Assembly: GCA_020692205.1 (NCBI GenBank)
Contig: JAIMKV010000003.1
Span: 34,942-98,941, forward strand
DNA from: Myxosarcina sp. GA_180221_E-2-1-MAG-40_15
GTDB taxonomy: Bacteria > Cyanobacteriota > Cyanobacteriia > Cyanobacteriales > Xenococcaceae
Direction of reading: 5' to 3'
Length of the DNA: 64,000 nucleotides
The position numbers and the translations under genes were made by a program. The notes under the pieces were generated by a model that searched no databases, was not told the DNA's origin, and was given only the letters and a program-made list of their open reading frames with translations. Positions 5,851 through 37,280 of the stretch are shown piece by piece (within the stretch, counting starts at the first letter, position 1; every line of letters starts with the position of its first letter).

Positions 5851-6024
5851 TCAGTGAGTGGGGGACTGGGAAGCAAAAGCAGAAAAAGCCTGCCCATATT
5901 GTTCAGTATTCCCCATTACAACGAGAACTACATCACCATTGAAGCAGATTTGCCCAAATGCAGGTGTTGTTTTAATAACTAAATATACAAACTAAAGAAA
6001 CGACCAACGTTGCGATTGTCTGAT

Positions 6025-7176
6025 CTACTTAAGGGTGTTGGAGAAATTTTCAAACCAACCCCGTCGCCAAAAGAAATATACCAAGCCAGCAGCCGTGGTT
6101 AGCATTAATGCCCAACAGAAGATATAGCCCCAATACCAGTCTAACTCAGGCATATTCCAGGGAGAAATATTGGTATTAAAATTCATGCCATAAATGCCGG
6201 CAATAAAAGTTAGGGGAATAAAAATACTCGAAATTACCGTCAGCAGTTTCATTACTTCATTCATTTTGTTACTGATAGCAGAAAGATAGATATCAGTCAG
6301 ACTAGAGGCTAATTCACGATAGGTTTCAATAATGTCAATGATTTGCACTGTATGATCGTAACAATCTCTTAAAAAAACTAAAATCTCTGGATCGATTACG
6401 CTACTACCATCTCTGATCAAAGTATTAAGAGCGTTTCTTTGGGGCCAAATTGCCCGTCGTAAAGCCAGTAATTCTCTTTTGATTTGATATACATTAGCTA
6501 AACTCTGATTGCTAGGGTTAAAGATCACCTCGTCTTCTAGATCTTCAATTTTTTCGCCATAAATTTCTAGAACTGGAAAGAAGCCATCAATAATTGCGTC
6601 CCAAAGAGCATAAGCTAGATAATCGGCACCCATTTCTCTAATAGCTCCCTTGTTAAATTTGATCCGTCGGCGTACTGGTCGCAAACAATCTTTTTCGGGA
6701 TATTCTTGTACGGTTAGCACGTAGTTTTTGCCTACTATTAAACTTACCTGTTCTAGCCAAAAGCCTTCTCCTGATGGTTTAAGCACCACCATTTGAGTAA
6801 TAATTACTAACTGTTGGGGATAATCTTCTATTTTGGGTCTTTGGGGAACATTAACTATATCTTCTAATACCAAAGGGTGTAATCCGAATACCTTGCCTAG
6901 TCTCTGTAAAATATTTTCGCTACCCAACCCTTTAACATCAACCCAGGATACCGAATTGGTTTGCATGTATTCGGCGCAGGCTTCTGGAGTTAAATTACTA
7001 ACATGATTGGCGCGATCGCCGTTATAGTCAATGAGTACAATCTGAGGTAATTTGGCATCGTCTTCAATATTAAGTGTTCCAGGAATACTTCCTGGCTGTT
7101 CGTAAGAATAGTCAAATAGATCTTCTTCTGCGGTTGATCTTGTTTCATTAAAATCTAATTGCTGTTCATAACTCAT
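6025..7176 (-). CDS. corA: CorA-family magnesium/cobalt transporter
   Basis: CorA is a pentameric divalent-cation channel. Most of this 383-residue protein is the cytoplasmic funnel, with long helices rich in Glu and Asp between residues 200 and 310. The two C-terminal membrane helices flank the selectivity signature YGMNF (Gly330-Met331-Asn332). The loop after it (NISPWNMPELDW) is the short periplasmic loop, and the positively charged tail WRRGWF is typical. The N-terminus (about 45 residues) is acidic and variable. The spacer in front of the gene carries a large composite stem-loop at 7213-7270, close enough to lie in the mRNA leader. Confidence 0.9.
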   Translation of the reverse strand: MSYEQQLDFNETRSTAEEDLFDYSYEQPGSIPGTLNIEDDAKLPQIVLIDYNGDRANHVSNLTPEACAEYMQTNSVSWVDVKGLGSENILQRLGKVFGLHPLVLEDIVNVPQRPKIEDYPQQLVIITQMVVLKPSGEGFWLEQVSLIVGKNYVLTVQEYPEKDCLRPVRRRIKFNKGAIREMGADYLAYALWDAIIDGFFPVLEIYGEKIEDLEDEVIFNPSNQSLANVYQIKRELLALRRAIWPQRNALNTLIRDGSSVIDPEILVFLRDCYDHTVQIIDIIETYRELASSLTDIYLSAISNKMNEVMKLLTVISSIFIPLTFIAGIYGMNFNTNISPWNMPELDWYWGYIFCWALMLTTAAGLVYFFWRRGWFENFSNTLK

Positions 7177-7808
7177 GGGACAATGCCAGTTTTAAAGTAC
7201 TCAGTTAATTATGACCGCGGAATGCGGTCACAGGCAAGCACCGCCTTTTAAAGGCGGTGAACCTGTGACCCAAAAAAAATACCAGCGAGGCGATCGCTGG
7301 CTAAGTTAAATGTTGTTGTTTAAGTCTGGAAAAATCTTTGGTTGCGCGTTCCCTAATAAGACAACTCTAAATTCTCTGGACTCAATAAGAATTGTAACAG
7401 AAGATACGATAATTTTGTAAAAAAATAATAAATGTATCATCTATTACACCGATTCTACGCTAGAAAAGCGTAACTTCATGTGATCTAAGTCTCTAAAGTT
7501 GAGATTTTCACCCCAAGCTTAATGACGAAAATCTAATTTATAGCTTGCTTCAAGCTTTAAATCGACTTATTTAAAGATCTTAGAGTTAAGGTATCTGAAG
7601 TATTTAACATCGACTCTATTATACGTGCTGTATCGAATGTTCCATGAATGATCTTGACCGCAATTGAGCAGAATTATATTTAGTAGACTATTCAACCGAA
7701 CCTGACATAACAGGTAGTCAGACCGCCTATATACAGCGTCAATATATTAACCAACTCAGCAACAAAAAAACCTCGACTCTCGCCGAGGTTTTTTTGTTGC
7801 TGAGTTGG
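7177..7808. other. Gene-free spacer upstream of corA with stem-loops
   Basis: About 630 bases without a convincing ORF. From the left: the composite stem-loop 7213-7270; an A-run followed by a CCAGCG/CGCTGG hairpin near 7283-7300 that includes a HIP1 site; then AT-rich text with small hairpins (TACGCT/AGCGTA near 7455 and AGCTTG/CAAGCT near 7540). The large inverted repeat at 7747-7812 closes it. A plus-strand small RNA ending at that inverted repeat is possible, but I could not match one to 6S RNA or a Yfr family. Confidence 0.5.
7213..7270. repeat. Composite hairpin element in the corA leader region
   Basis: Three nested or abutting inverted repeats. GACCGC/GCGGTC at 7213-7229 forms a small hairpin. 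GGTCACAGG (7226-7234) pairs with CCTGTGACC (7262-7270) as an outer stem. Inside it, CACCGCCTTT (7239-7248) pairs perfectly with AAAGGCGGTG (7250-7259). The two outer alternatives share bases 7226-7229, so they exclude each other. Related hairpins occur at 3659 and 4031. It lies 37-94 bases before the corA start, so a role in the leader is possible but unproven. Confidence 0.6.
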
Positions 7809-7812
7809 TTAA
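7747..7812. terminator. Bidirectional intrinsic terminator, 29-bp perfect inverted repeat
   Basis: Left arm 7747-7775 and right arm 7784-7812 are perfect complements around the 8-base loop ACTCTCGC. The inner stem is CCTCG/CGAGG flanked by A7 on one side and T7 on the other, so it looks like an intrinsic terminator read from either strand. The stop codon (TAA at 7811-7809) of the minus-strand hypothetical gene lies inside the right arm. Nothing recognised ends here on the plus strand. Confidence 0.8.
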
Positions 7813-8237
7813 ATTCTCGTTAGAGTAGAGCGACAATTTTTGACGATGATTTGTTGTGCAAGTTCCTGAGAATATCTAACGGTATTATCTAGTATATTCT
7901 TTTTAGCTGTTGGGTATTTTTTGATGCTCTTTTCGATTACTTCTTGAAACATTTCCCAAATCTTAGGATGATATTTCAAGGTGCAATTATAGCTAGTTTT
8001 CATGATGTAATGATCTTCGATGACCAAGGAATAAGTTAATATTCGACTTTGATTTGCAAGCTGTTTAACTGCGGAGCATTGAATAAGCTCGTTATATTGA
8101 TCGACTAACTGATTATATTTTTGGCAATTTGAGCCGTCAGTATCTTGGGGATAATTTAGTAAATATGGGCGCGGTAAACTTTTGTAAGCAGTTTTGTAGT
8201 TTCTCTTCAGCATATCCCGTACTGATATAGTCCACAT
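7809..8237 (-). CDS. Hypothetical protein
   Basis: I do not recognise this protein. It is 142 residues, basic, with Cys spread along it (DGSNCQKYNQLV, LIQCSAV, YNCTLKYH, VKNCRST) and no membrane segment or signal peptide that I can see. I start at the ATG at 8237 because GAGG lies 9 bases upstream; an ATG at 8249 abuts the GAGG and is unlikely to be used. A second frame (8367 to 8137) overlaps the N-terminus and begins MCHEFVLIS. The true N-terminus could come from that frame if there is a frameshift. The gene ends inside the inverted repeat at 7747-7812. Confidence 0.45.
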   Translation of the reverse strand: MWTISVRDMLKRNYKTAYKSLPRPYLLNYPQDTDGSNCQKYNQLVDQYNELIQCSAVKQLANQSRILTYSLVIEDHYIMKTSYNCTLKYHPKIWEMFQEVIEKSIKKYPTAKKNILDNTVRYSQELAQQIIVKNCRSTLTRI

Positions 8238-8417
8238 TTTGATTTGCATCCTCTGGTATAAATATTTTCGGTTTTAGTGTAACTTTTGTTTTATATTTCT
8301 TGGTTGTTACACTGATGCAAGGCAAGTTTAAATATTGAGTTGAGATCAATACAAATTCATGGCACATAATACATTTACTGCGCTTTTAGGTTGAGTAGAA
8401 TACATGAGTTAAACTTT

Positions 8418-8454
8418 GAAAAAGGTAAAAGCTAAGAGCCAATAGCTCTTAGCT
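8418..8454 (-). terminator. Hairpin terminator after the 49-residue gene
   Basis: Read on the minus strand: AGCTAAGAGC, loop TATTG, GCTCTTAGCT, then TTTACCTTTTTC. A 10-bp stem followed by a T-rich run 16 bases after the stop of the small gene at 8470 fits an intrinsic terminator. Copies of the AGCTAAGAGCT text also occur near 37441, so it may derive from a repeated spacer sequence. Confidence 0.55.
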
Positions 8455-8469
8455 CTTAGCTAATATTAA

Positions 8470-8619
8470 TCAAGAATATTTTTTAGGATCGTCACAGGGA
8501 TCGCCTTTGTAAGGTTGGACTCCAGTTTTGGGATAATCATCATCAGTAGGCTTGAACAGTCTTGAGACTCCGTTCCAAATATATTGAACTGTATCTTGGA
8601 TCCAGGTAGAAATTTTCAT
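8470..8619 (-). CDS. Small conserved-looking protein, 49 residues
   Basis: A short gene with a good ribosome site (AAGAGG, 9 bases before the ATG at 8619). The product starts MKISTWIQDTVQYIWNGVSR, an amphipathic helix, followed by LFKPTDDDYPKTGVQPYKGD and an acidic, Pro-rich tail. Short cyanobacterial proteins with a similar WIQDT...YIWNGVSR and DDxYPxTGVQP pattern are familiar to me, but their function is unknown. A hairpin terminator follows. It lies 17 bases downstream of the GerMN gene stop and could be co-transcribed with it. Confidence 0.65.
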   Translation of the reverse strand: MKISTWIQDTVQYIWNGVSRLFKPTDDDYPKTGVQPYKGDPCDDPKKYS

Positions 8620-28604: not shown

Positions 28605-28921
28605 TGGCTACACCGTAGTTTAATTGATAGTAGGTTTTCAATTGAAGGTTCTTTGATCTTAGAGTCAACCCTTCCCTGCATTCCGCGATCATATATTTTT
28701 TTGCCTAAATTAATATTAATTATGTATAAACTTTAATTCATCATCCAAAAACCTGTAAGACAGAGTAAACTTACGATACTTGGCTAAATGGTAAAAAAAT
28801 AGATTGATATATTTAGTAGCAGATATTACTTTACCTATATTTAATGAGGTGAAAATAGAATAACGTTGGATTCAACTCAAACTATAGCACACCGTAATTA
28901 ATTAATTAATTGTCTTCAATT

Positions 28922-29674
28922 ATGCTAAATAAAATTCAATATAAATATCAGAAGCTAGTAGTTGCCAATTGTGTTGAAATCGAAATTGATCGCATTTTAA
29001 TTTTTGTCGAGACTATCTCTGAAGTCGAAGCTTTTCGAGAATTAAATTTTTACCATTTTGAATTTACCTACCGCAGTTTAGAACAGGGAACGATATCCAA
29101 CATCTTTTTTCTCGGGAATATGGCTCTAGAGCTAATCAGGATCGAGAATTTAGCTTTAGCTACTAAATATTCGACAAGAACCAATATGGATATTATCGCG
29201 CGTACTCGGTGGCGCAAAAATCAAGCTCTGCCGTTGGGACTAGTTCTACGTTATGTGGCTAGTCAGCAACCTAAATCGAGACGTCGCGATCGCAATACTG
29301 ATGGACAAAAAATCAATTGGGTTCAAGCAGACTCAGAAATTAATTTCTCTAGTGAAAATTTACAAGAATTAAACGAGCCAGCTTGCTATATTGTTTCCCC
29401 GTCACTTACCTGCGAACGGTTACTCGATAAGACATCGGCGCTCAAACAAAGATTGCTGGCTCATCAATCAAAAACTAGTAAGCTGACAAGTATCCAAATT
29501 ACGCTGAATACTTCTAAGCCCTTAACTAAAACTGCTGCTTTAATCTCTACTTTAAATTTGATCGAGATCAAGCAAGGAAATTATCCTAAACTAAAATTAG
29601 AGTTTGACCAAGGCTGTCAGCAGCAATTATTTTTAGCTACATCCTCAACTATACCAATGATTATCTCTTATTGA
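28922..29674 (+). CDS. VOC/glyoxalase-like-fold protein
   Basis: Its opening EIEIDRILIFVETISEVEAF and the following LEQGTISNIFFLGNMALELIRIEN resemble the first half of glyoxalase-like VOC proteins (DHxLIxVxD...GTxNxxFxxxNxYLEL). The usual metal His near the start is not obvious, so catalysis is doubtful. The second half (LRYVASQQPKSRR onward) is less familiar. I start at ATG 28922; a TTG at 28910 is also in frame. It is divergent from the initiating transferase with a 317-base AT-rich gap (28605-28921) that should contain promoters for both, though none is clear. Its link with the polysaccharide locus is unknown. Confidence 0.55.
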   Translation: MLNKIQYKYQKLVVANCVEIEIDRILIFVETISEVEAFRELNFYHFEFTYRSLEQGTISNIFFLGNMALELIRIENLALATKYSTRTNMDIIARTRWRKNQALPLGLVLRYVASQQPKSRRRDRNTDGQKINWVQADSEINFSSENLQELNEPACYIVSPSLTCERLLDKTSALKQRLLAHQSKTSKLTSIQITLNTSKPLTKTAALISTLNLIEIKQGNYPKLKLEFDQGCQQQLFLATSSTIPMIISY

Positions 29675-29849: not shown

Positions 29850-29883
29850 AATTTTGCTCTGGTTTTTGAGCTACAGCAAAATT
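29850..29883. repeat. Inverted repeat with 16-base loop
   Basis: AATTTTGCT (29850-29858) and AGCAAAATT (29875-29883) are perfect complements. Its right arm overlaps the left arm of the palindrome at 29880, so the two structures would compete in RNA or lie side by side as protein sites in DNA. Confidence 0.6.
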
Positions 29884-29904
29884 ACACTTAATTTAAGTGT
29901 AATT
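29880..29904. promoter_or_regulatory. 11-bp palindrome, candidate operator
   Basis: AATTACACTTA, centre ATT, TAAGTGTAATT: perfect 11-bp arms, 190 bases upstream of the DUF3102 gene. It could be an operator for a dimeric regulator or a weak terminator of the VOC-like gene upstream (GGTAATTTTTATT follows). The low GC content argues for an operator. Confidence 0.45.
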
Positions 29905-30093: not shown

Positions 30094-31083
30094 ATGAAAG
30101 ATCAGTTAGAAAATCATCAAATTGCCAACAGCTTTGATTACAATGCTTTAGAATCGGAGCAACGTTCGATTCTCAAACAACGAACCGAAGAAATTAAAGA
30201 GCGTTTAAAACGCTCGGCTCAAGACATTTGGGAAATAGGTCAAAAACTTTTTGAAGTGCGTTCTGAGATTGCCTATGGTCAGTTCGACAGTTGGTTAAAA
30301 GCCGAATTTGGCTGGAGTCGACGTACAGCGTATAATTTTGTTAAGGTTTATGAAGCTTTTCCTGAACGTGCAACTGTTGCACAAGTCAGTATAGCCGCAT
30401 CGGCTCTTTATCAATTATCTTCACCATCTACTCCTAAAAAAGTGCGCGAGGAATTTATCCAAAGAGCCAAAGATGGAGAAAAGATCACTCGCCAGGAGAT
30501 TCGTTTAGCTGTCCAGCAAGAAAAACCGTCTCTTGCCTTAAATGCTATTGCTACTAAGCCAGAAAAAGCTATTGCTCAACAGCAAATTATTTCGATTATC
30601 CCTCAAACTACTAATGCCATTAACGCCTTAGCCAAAAAAACTCAACAGTCAGACGATTTGAGCGACTCGGTTGAACCTGAACTACCTTCAAAAGGATGGT
30701 ATAGTTTAGGCGAACAGCACTTTCTCTTTTACGGTGACACTGCATCGCCTCAATTCCACCAAAATATACCAGAAGCCGATCTGGCTATAGCAATCACCTC
30801 TAGTGATTGGGATCATGATTGGTTAGTTGACAAGGTAGAAAATTTGCTGGTGCTAAAAGAGTCTTATTTGCCCAAAGAAGCTCTTGACACATTAATTACA
30901 CTGCTCTGCAAACCAGGAGACACGGTACTTTTTCCCTGGCTACCAGATGAGAACATAATTGATTTAGCTCATCAGCTAGGCAGAATTGTGGTAGCAGGAG
31001 ATCCTATTTTAGAACGCTGTCAAAAGGCGATCGCCAAATCCAAGTTAACCTTAAAGCTAATTTCACCCCTGGAAAAACGGTGA
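30094..31083 (+). CDS. DUF3102 protein fused to a degenerate DNA methyltransferase domain
   Basis: Residues about 20-140 match DUF3102: ILKQRTEEIKERLKRSAQDI, FDSWLKAEFGWSRRTAYNFV and a C-terminal helix EKITRQEIRLAV; the middle looks like a DNA-binding helix-turn-helix. A linker leads to residues 200-313, which follow the order of a beta-class N4/N6 DNA methyltransferase: LGEQHFLFYGDT (usually LGxHxLLCGD), DLAIAITSSDW where DPPY should be, then GDTVLFPWLPDENIIDLAHQLGR in place of VLDPFxGxGTT. Neither the DPPY catalytic motif nor the SAM-binding loop is intact, so it is probably a DNA-binding regulator. It lies between the two arms of the polysaccharide locus. Confidence 0.65.
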   Translation: MKDQLENHQIANSFDYNALESEQRSILKQRTEEIKERLKRSAQDIWEIGQKLFEVRSEIAYGQFDSWLKAEFGWSRRTAYNFVKVYEAFPERATVAQVSIAASALYQLSSPSTPKKVREEFIQRAKDGEKITRQEIRLAVQQEKPSLALNAIATKPEKAIAQQQIISIIPQTTNAINALAKKTQQSDDLSDSVEPELPSKGWYSLGEQHFLFYGDTASPQFHQNIPEADLAIAITSSDWDHDWLVDKVENLLVLKESYLPKEALDTLITLLCKPGDTVLFPWLPDENIIDLAHQLGRIVVAGDPILERCQKAIAKSKLTLKLISPLEKR

Positions 31084-35221: not shown

Positions 35222-36130
35222 ATGCTCAAAAAATTCTTATCCAATAATCATAACCAATCCCCGATATTTGTATTGGGGACAGGCAGAAGTGGTACGACTC
35301 TTTTGCAGAGAATTATTAATAGTGCTGAAAATGTAGTAATTTGGGGTGAACATGGAGGTTTTTTAAGCCCAGTTGCCGAGGCTTACTTTTTAAATTTAGA
35401 AGATAAAACCATACTGCATAATATTCCCAAGCGAAATAGTCCTTTTGATACTCCTCAAGCCAAAGTTCAAAAGCTAAAGAACTCAAAACTATGGCCAGCA
35501 TGGTGCAATTGGTATAGTCAGAAAGAAGCCCGAGATATTTTTCGTTCTTTGATCGAAAACTTCTTCAATCCCCCCAATCTTGACCAAAACCTATCCTGGG
35601 GATTTAAAGAAATCAAATATGGTCGAGGTTGTCGAACTTTGGAAATGCTCGCAGATTTATATACTGATGCCAAGTTTGTTTTGATAATTCGTGACCCAGT
35701 AGATGTAATTGCCGCATATTTTTTCAAATACCTTAAACAAAAATCAGGCTTAGGCGATCGCTTAACAATTTCCCAGGCAAAAGAACTTAAAGCAAACTGC
35801 GAATTTTCAATTATCAAAGAAGCAGAAGCATGGAGAAAACAAAATGCTTATTTTATGGACTTCAAAGCCAAAAAAAGTCACCAAAGCTGGCTGGTTATTT
35901 ACGAAGATTTAATTGCCACTCCAAGTATTGCCGAGTCAACCTTAGAATGGCTGGGCGTTTCCTACTCAAATAAAAAAATCCAGTCAATTTTAGAAATGAA
36001 AGAAGGCAGAGGTGAATCGCTCAAGGTAGGAGAAGGTAAAGCTCGTTCAATTTTAACTAACGCCGAAATTGAGCAAATCAGAGAAATTACACAAGAAGTC
36101 ACCAAAGAGTTTAAACTCGTAACTAAATAA
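35222..36130 (+). CDS. Sulfotransferase family protein 1
   Basis: The protein (302 residues) has the PAPS 5'-phosphosulfate loop FVLGTGRSGTTLLQRI (residues 16-31) and the 3'-phosphate site KFVLIIRDPVDVIAAYF. The catalytic base is not obvious. It would transfer sulfate from PAPS to a hydroxyl or amino group, here probably a sugar of the surface polysaccharide. It leads the plus-strand arm; the GH10-like gene follows after 22 bases. Confidence 0.85.
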   Translation: MLKKFLSNNHNQSPIFVLGTGRSGTTLLQRIINSAENVVIWGEHGGFLSPVAEAYFLNLEDKTILHNIPKRNSPFDTPQAKVQKLKNSKLWPAWCNWYSQKEARDIFRSLIENFFNPPNLDQNLSWGFKEIKYGRGCRTLEMLADLYTDAKFVLIIRDPVDVIAAYFFKYLKQKSGLGDRLTISQAKELKANCEFSIIKEAEAWRKQNAYFMDFKAKKSHQSWLVIYEDLIATPSIAESTLEWLGVSYSNKKIQSILEMKEGRGESLKVGEGKARSILTNAEIEQIREITQEVTKEFKLVTK

Positions 36131-36152: not shown

Positions 36153-37280
36153 GTGAAATACAGATATTTCCGAAAATACAAGCAGACATTAATCAGTATT
36201 TTCATCATCATTGGGGTACTAATTTTCTTGGTGATCCAATCATCAGCCCAAGTATTACCAAGCGGTAGCAGATTGAAAGATTTGGCAACATCTAATACCA
36301 AAATTGGCAGTGTGGGGACATATAATACTTTTTTCCCTGAAGACGGTAAAAGTCAGCAAAAGTATCGAACCTTGTTTCAGCGAGAGATGAGTGCGGGAAC
36401 AGTCTTATGTTATCCCATAAGCCTTTGGACGGGTTTTAAACAGTACTCTTTTTCCGAGTTTAATCGTACAGTTAACTGGTTTGAGAATAACGGACTCGCG
36501 CAAATGGCTCATTTACTAGTTGGTCCTAGTCAATATTATCCTCAATGGTTTCTTGATAACTCTTACACGAACGAGCAATTAGAAGACATTATGGAAGACT
36601 TTATTCGCGAGGTGATGCACAGTAATAATAATGGCAGCAAAATTGATGTCTGGAATGTAGTGAATGAAGCACTTTGGCTGGAAGGTGGCGCTCCTTATAC
36701 AGGAACGATCTGGAATCAGTTAGGAAGGGAAGAGGATCAATCAGGTTTGACAGGAGCGGATAAAATACTTAATCAGCATCCAGTCTATATTCGTAGAGCT
36801 TTCGAGATTGCCCGAAAATATACCAGCAACAAGTTAGAGTTACGAGATAACGGGATCGAATTTCCTGATGATGACGAATATCAAATGTTTTATCAGTTGG
36901 TCAAGCATCTACTAAATCAAGGAGTACCATTGGATGCCGTCGGTTTTCAAACACATTTAAATACAAATGACACTTATGATTGGGAGGGGTTGAAAAACAA
37001 TATTAGAAGATATAAAGATTTAGGCTTAGAGGTCTACATTACCGAATTAGATGTTGGCAATGATGGTAGCGAACAGGGAAGAGAAAAACAGAAACAATAT
37101 TATTATAACGTAGTCAAAGCAGCTAGAGAAGGAGGTGCCGATCAGATTCACCTGTGGGGATTAAATGACGGACAAATGGGTGATTATCGCGAAGATGAAT
37201 TTGCGCTCTTATTTGAGGGCTATATGGAGCCAAAGCCAGCCTACTATGGTTTCCAACAGGCCTTAACTAACTATCAATAA
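36153..37280 (+). CDS. GH10-family glycosidase-like protein, membrane anchored
   Basis: The protein (375 residues, GTG start 22 bases after the sulfotransferase stop) has a basic N-terminus and hydrophobic segment (about 12-30), so the catalytic domain is probably outside the membrane. The acid/base Glu172 sits in DVWNVVNEALW and the nucleophile Glu298 in VYITELDV, both standard for GH10. The block HLLVGPSQYYPQWF (His120) replaces the canonical HTLVWHSQxPxWF, losing the Trp-His pair that lines the -1 subsite. A xylanase role is therefore uncertain; processing or editing of the local polysaccharide is a reasonable inference. Confidence 0.8.
   Translation: MKYRYFRKYKQTLISIFIIIGVLIFLVIQSSAQVLPSGSRLKDLATSNTKIGSVGTYNTFFPEDGKSQQKYRTLFQREMSAGTVLCYPISLWTGFKQYSFSEFNRTVNWFENNGLAQMAHLLVGPSQYYPQWFLDNSYTNEQLEDIMEDFIREVMHSNNNGSKIDVWNVVNEALWLEGGAPYTGTIWNQLGREEDQSGLTGADKILNQHPVYIRRAFEIARKYTSNKLELRDNGIEFPDDDEYQMFYQLVKHLLNQGVPLDAVGFQTHLNTNDTYDWEGLKNNIRRYKDLGLEVYITELDVGNDGSEQGREKQKQYYYNVVKAAREGGADQIHLWGLNDGQMGDYREDEFALLFEGYMEPKPAYYGFQQALTNYQ

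Follow-up and report, generated by a model that had tools for sequence, protein, structure and literature searches.

The gene at 30094–31083 on the forward strand of the window, by which we mean the whole 64,000-nucleotide stretch of DNA that was analysed, raises the question of what a protein might do when it joins a putative DNA-binding domain to a DNA methyltransferase-like domain from which the catalytic motifs have gone. The reading frame opens with ATG, encodes 329 amino acids and is flanked on both sides by polysaccharide genes. The original prediction, made from the sequence alone, was of a regulator that reads rather than modifies DNA and that may control phase or capsule expression. 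Our literature search found no functional description of DUF3102, the N-terminal domain, or of the present gene.

Residues 43–142 (30220–30519, +) match DUF3102 (Pfam PF11300) with an E-value of 2.8e-11 and 44.2 bits, well above the curated cut-off of 24.4. In the AlphaFold model (mean pLDDT 76) this domain contains a helix-turn-helix-like pair of helices, residues 63–71 and 76–88 (30280–30357, +), so that the Pfam match and the predicted helices bear out the prediction of a DUF3102 domain of helix-turn-helix-like character at the N-terminus. No solved structure resembling DUF3102 by sequence was found, the similarity of DUF3102 to the helix-turn-helix of ParB relatives is not significant by itself, and Pfam detected no ParB_N domain (PF02195) in the window protein. 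Nonetheless, because of these helices and of the plasmid, phage and ParB-like company that the domain keeps, it is reasonable to suppose that DUF3102 binds DNA. About residues 143–196 (30520–30681, +) form a disordered linker, with pLDDT below 50 at residues 145–192, while the blocks of the C-terminal domain mostly reach 74–95.

The C-terminal domain, residues 200–317 (30691–31044, +), is less easily recognized. As a single sequence, neither the window protein nor its C-terminal part gives a Pfam match to N6_N4_Mtase (PF01555). We therefore turn to the family: homologues were collected from 38 database loci, and 33 full-length sequences, the window's included, were aligned. Two are 63–64% identical to the window protein, one is 30% identical and the rest fall at 44–49%. 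Searched against the PDB, the 33-sequence profile has a sole match, MboIIA (1g60), at motifs X-I-II with an E-value of 0.029. An HMM made from only the C-terminal columns matches 16 active-type cyanobacterial beta-class methyltransferase reading frames, drawn from a PF01555 search, with E-values of 5e-3 to 4e-5, and all 16 matches fall on the same segment as the MboIIA match. Aligned by hhalign against ten active methylases, the C-terminal part scores 94.5% (P 7.6e-8). The top Foldseek matches of the AlphaFold model are the beta-class methylases M1.HpyAVI, TTHA0409, M.BceJIV, MboIIA and RsrI, with probabilities of 0.99–1.00 and modest E-values of 1e-2 to 1e-1, the latter because half of the catalytic domain is missing, the target-recognition region included. 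The individual E-values are thus modest and the methods concordant, confirming that the domain has a Rossmann-like methylase fold with the beta-class order of motifs. That order had been read by eye in residues 200–313, and both checks proposed for it came out in its favor: the profile-profile alignment to active beta-class methylases is significant, and structure prediction ranked such enzymes first and turned up no unrelated fold.

The catalytic positions tell a consistent story across the family. In the window protein the catalytic DPPY of motif IV has given way to TSSDW (residues 235–239; 30796–30810, +), and the SAM-binding DPFxGxG of motif I to FPWLPDE (residues 280–286; 30931–30951, +), which aligns on motif I of 1g60. 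The motif II remnant A-G-D (residues 301–303; 30994–31002, +) keeps its acidic residue; the GD at 302–303 and the preceding R297 are both retained. Neither [DNS]PP[YFW] nor FxGxG occurs in any of the 33 aligned sequences, which instead conserve TS(D/S)DW and FPWLP along with an arginine and two GD pairs, one ahead of motif IV and the other in motif II. The substitutions of SSDW for DPPY and of PWLPDE for the FxGxG loop, first noticed in one protein, therefore hold in the alignment. In nine close pairs, dN/dS is 0.06–0.26 for the methylase-type domain, 0.02–0.17 for DUF3102, the best-conserved part of the protein, and 0.3–1.1 for the linker. By these values the dead domain is under purifying selection, and so it is selected for something besides the methylation known for its class.

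An intermediate stage in this decay survives in a family of cyanobacterial ParB_N proteins of about 450 amino acids (L084–L092), apparently found in many of the sampled Nostocaceae, whose C-terminal domain is the same by hhalign (99.4%, P 5e-22). These proteins have ParB_N where the present protein has DUF3102, and their two methylase halves are separated by about 48 additional residues; they retain half of motif I as APFMGxGE, and DPPY is absent from those that were read. For some of them a weak PF01555 match persists (E 8e-5 for L086), and L085 is picked up by a PADLOC type II methylase model at 7.6e-21. Against active methylases, their hhalign score (73.7%, P 2.9e-5, from nine rows only) is weaker than that of the present family. 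The sequences make up a stepwise evolutionary series leading from an active beta-class methylase through the dead ParB-fused form to the further shrunken DUF3102-fused form, and so from a DNA-modifying enzyme to a non-enzymatic domain. A phage origin for the C-terminal domain was considered and set aside, the only viral matches being weak ones to Methanoculleus viruses (E 0.8); what viral relatives have in common with the present protein is the DUF3102 part alone. A role in defence was likewise discarded, with a single weak PADLOC match (E 0.003).

DUF3102 has also been joined to a methylase of another kind. Two proteins carry it together with a phage-type Dam domain (PF05869) with an intact NPPC or NPPF motif (L039, 1254–2669, +; L077, 109–2019, –), so DUF3102 is fused to two kinds of methylase, one of them apparently active; the survey of active and inactive fusions proposed with the original prediction thus turned up both. 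Elsewhere the domain occurs in plasmid- and phage-type proteins. A methylase-less DUF3102 protein directly adjoins a large polyketide-synthase-like gene in another genome (G380, L103, 9235–10221), and papers on tolyporphin clusters place a DUF3102 gene at the edge of the cluster (PMC8401325). In Nostoc sp. PA-18-2419 (L009) the full-length gene of the present type is tandemly duplicated, at 5980–6960 and 7525–8511.

The window's own genome encodes a paralogue (G000, contig C29, locus L002, 1468–2961, –) in which a receiver-like N-terminus precedes DUF3102 and the dead methylase domain, and which adjoins a gene for a histidine-kinase-type HATPase protein (L002, 37–1113, +). The receiver-like region was recognized by eye and has no Pfam match; its phmmer matches in the PDB, all to repeat proteins over a short stretch, were disregarded. 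A protein similar to the paralogue, annotated as a diguanylate cyclase, is encoded on plasmid2 of Chondrocystis NIES-4102. A receiver-like part and an HATPase neighbour are what one would expect of a regulator, and so the paralogue supports a regulatory role.

The most constant companion of the gene is a conserved neighbour encoding a protein of 254 amino acids, which lies upstream in the window (28910–29674, +). The window's partner protein has no Pfam match by itself, and its family has no sequence relative in the PDB, but a relative in L012 matches Glyoxalase_3 (E 1.4e-6), and Foldseek assigns the partner a VOC (glyoxalase-like) fold, with 3p8a at E 6.9e-7 and many VOC enzymes besides. Besides the window, 23 of the 38 database loci have the partner next to the gene, several of the loci without it ending at contig edges. 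In a sample of 386 genomes, eight have a full-length protein of this clade; the close partner family is present in seven of the eight, adjacent every time, and in the eighth the gene stands without a partner on a contig that stops 337 bp upstream. One further genome has the partner (E 3e-56) and lacks the gene. The association across the 386 genomes is highly significant (Fisher P 2.7e-13). Close members of the partner family hardly ever occur in these genomes without the DUF3102 gene. The two genes are divergent in most loci, and in tandem in the window and its two Pleurocapsales relatives.

To see where the pair resides, we considered the 11–20 kb around the gene in seven independent genomes. 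In all seven it lies among genes of NRPS/PKS type or genes for thioesterases, exporters, Suc_Fer-like proteins, iron permeases (OFeT), fatty acid hydroxylases, isochorismate synthases or P450s, and these biosynthetic neighbourhoods represent at least three cluster types. PP-binding domains are encoded within 35 kb in six of the seven genomes. Five of the seven have a TonB receptor gene no more than 20 kb away, although only 1–6% of each genome is that near to one (P 8.9e-7, a figure that leaves any common descent of the loci out of account). Fur-type 7-1-7 sites (TGATAATNATTATCA, with up to two mismatches) occur in five of 30 upstream regions, against a mean of 0.2 and a maximum of 1 in shuffled sequences, and Fur-box-like sites are thus enriched between the two divergent genes, the Fur consensus having been tested after an enriched k-mer had pointed to it. 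With the FurA consensus of PMC4005646 and up to five mismatches the enrichment is moderate, at 12 of 30 regions against about five expected and a maximum of nine. Given the NRPS/PKS genes, the TonB receptors and the Fur-type sites, we take these clusters to be, most likely, siderophore clusters. No TonB receptor is encoded in the genome to which the window belongs, and a siderophore role should therefore not be assumed there. An experimentally proven siderophore cluster, that of cyanochelin B, which is carried on a plasmid, does not contain the gene.

The polysaccharide neighbours seen in the window are common only to it and the two Pleurocapsales relatives (L004 and L005). Within the larger family these three group together as a clade supported at 100/100, the branch that joins them to the rest not being firmly placed. 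We read the polysaccharide setting as lineage-specific, the gene having moved to this locus in the Pleurocapsales. Adjoining the polysaccharide genes in the window are genes for a sulfotransferase (35222–36130) and a GH10 glycosidase (36153–37280), which suggests that the polysaccharide is sulfated. Between the partner gene and the DUF3102 gene lies a near-perfect 25-bp palindrome, AATTACACTTAATTTAAGTGTAATT (29880–29904), which had been put forward for gel shifts. The palindrome is real, but it occurs once in the genome and is absent from relatives; it is a poor operator candidate and is rejected as an operator for the family. Searches for k-mers and dyads in 29 upstream regions found no family-wide operator, and GCAATATTGC, present in five of 31 upstream regions from about three lineages, was chosen after the fact and serves as a hint only.

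On balance we lean towards the view that the gene product is a cluster-situated DNA-binding regulator that works with its VOC-fold partner, mostly in NRPS/PKS clusters with siderophore features and, in the Pleurocapsales, in a polysaccharide locus. The gene does recur inside biosynthetic clusters, as a cluster-situated regulator should; we infer DNA binding, regulation, a ligand and Fur control of the module. DUF3102 would contact the DNA, and the C-terminal domain, a descendant of a beta-class DNA methyltransferase stripped of motif IV, motif I and the target-recognition region, would now probably serve in dimerisation, in small-molecule sensing, or in both. The protein would act jointly with its VOC-fold neighbour. 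In most cyanobacteria the two genes would constitute a divergent module, probably under Fur control, that governs the NRPS/PKS cluster in which it sits, and in the Pleurocapsales the module may govern the sulfated-polysaccharide locus. A more specific version, which we regard as speculative and rather doubtful, is that a VOC-fold sensor and a DUF3102 DNA-binding protein make up an undescribed siderophore-cluster switch, in which the former SAM pocket senses the product or another metabolite, and that this switch has been re-used for the polysaccharide locus of the Pleurocapsales.

Regulation is not the only role that such a pair could play. The VOC protein might instead modify or bind a metabolite, with the dead domain binding that metabolite or a carrier protein and any DNA binding by DUF3102 incidental or merely autoregulatory. 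The VOC fold is common among enzymes and drug-binding proteins, strict pairing would suit a two-subunit enzyme, and the pair does travel with thioesterases, oxygenases and exporters. Yet the best-conserved part of the protein (dN/dS 0.02–0.17) is a domain otherwise seen in plasmid- and phage-type proteins, and the same pair is also found in a polysaccharide locus, which has no chemistry in common with the NRPS clusters, so we judge this accessory role unlikely. Still less probable, in our view, is a domesticated ParB-like partition or mobile-element protein with a vestigial methylase, active in DNA segregation or nucleoid organisation, whose genomic location would be no more than a sign of mobile or transferred clusters. 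It would fit with the ParB_N fusions being the closest relatives of the methylase domain, with the frequency of DUF3102 on plasmids, and with the distant copies of the DUF3102-dead-methylase gene that have primase- or topoisomerase-like genes close by (L036, L101 and L102), but the fixed partner and recurrent biosynthetic neighbours of the full-length clade and the absence of ParB_N all speak against it. We give least credence to a regulator specific to capsule, polysaccharide or phase variation. Control of the capsule had been predicted from the position of the gene, and the link to the locus stands insofar as the same polysaccharide genes flank the pair in all three members of the 100/100 clade; about 30 other full-length homologues, however, are found in other settings, and control of phase finds no backing, as nothing resembling a phase switch was seen at the locus. 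A cluster-situated regulator thus remains our preferred reading. It makes the gene a candidate regulator for siderophore-type NRPS/PKS clusters in cyanobacteria as diverse as Nostoc, Lyngbya, Crocosphaera and Leptolyngbya, and the gene with its VOC partner could serve to flag such clusters in genome mining.

Compared with known systems, the C-terminal domain has the same fold and the same motif order, IV-X-I-II, as the beta-class N6-adenine/N4-cytosine methyltransferases (PF01555; MboIIA 1g60, M1.HpyAVI, TTHA0409). It is, however, reduced to about 118 residues where theirs has 200 or more, motifs V–VIII and the target-recognition region are deleted, and DPPY and FxGxG are missing from every member of the family. 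Most of the other proteins encountered here from the DUF3102 family (PF11300, which goes with UPF0137-like proteins) have no methylase domain. As for the setting, the available portions of the reports on the FurA-regulated siderophore clusters all2641–2649 of Anabaena PCC 7120 (PMC4005646) and cyanochelin B (PMC12628792) make no mention of such a regulator; these clusters likewise combine NRPS/PKS genes, a TonB receptor and an exporter with Fur-type sites.
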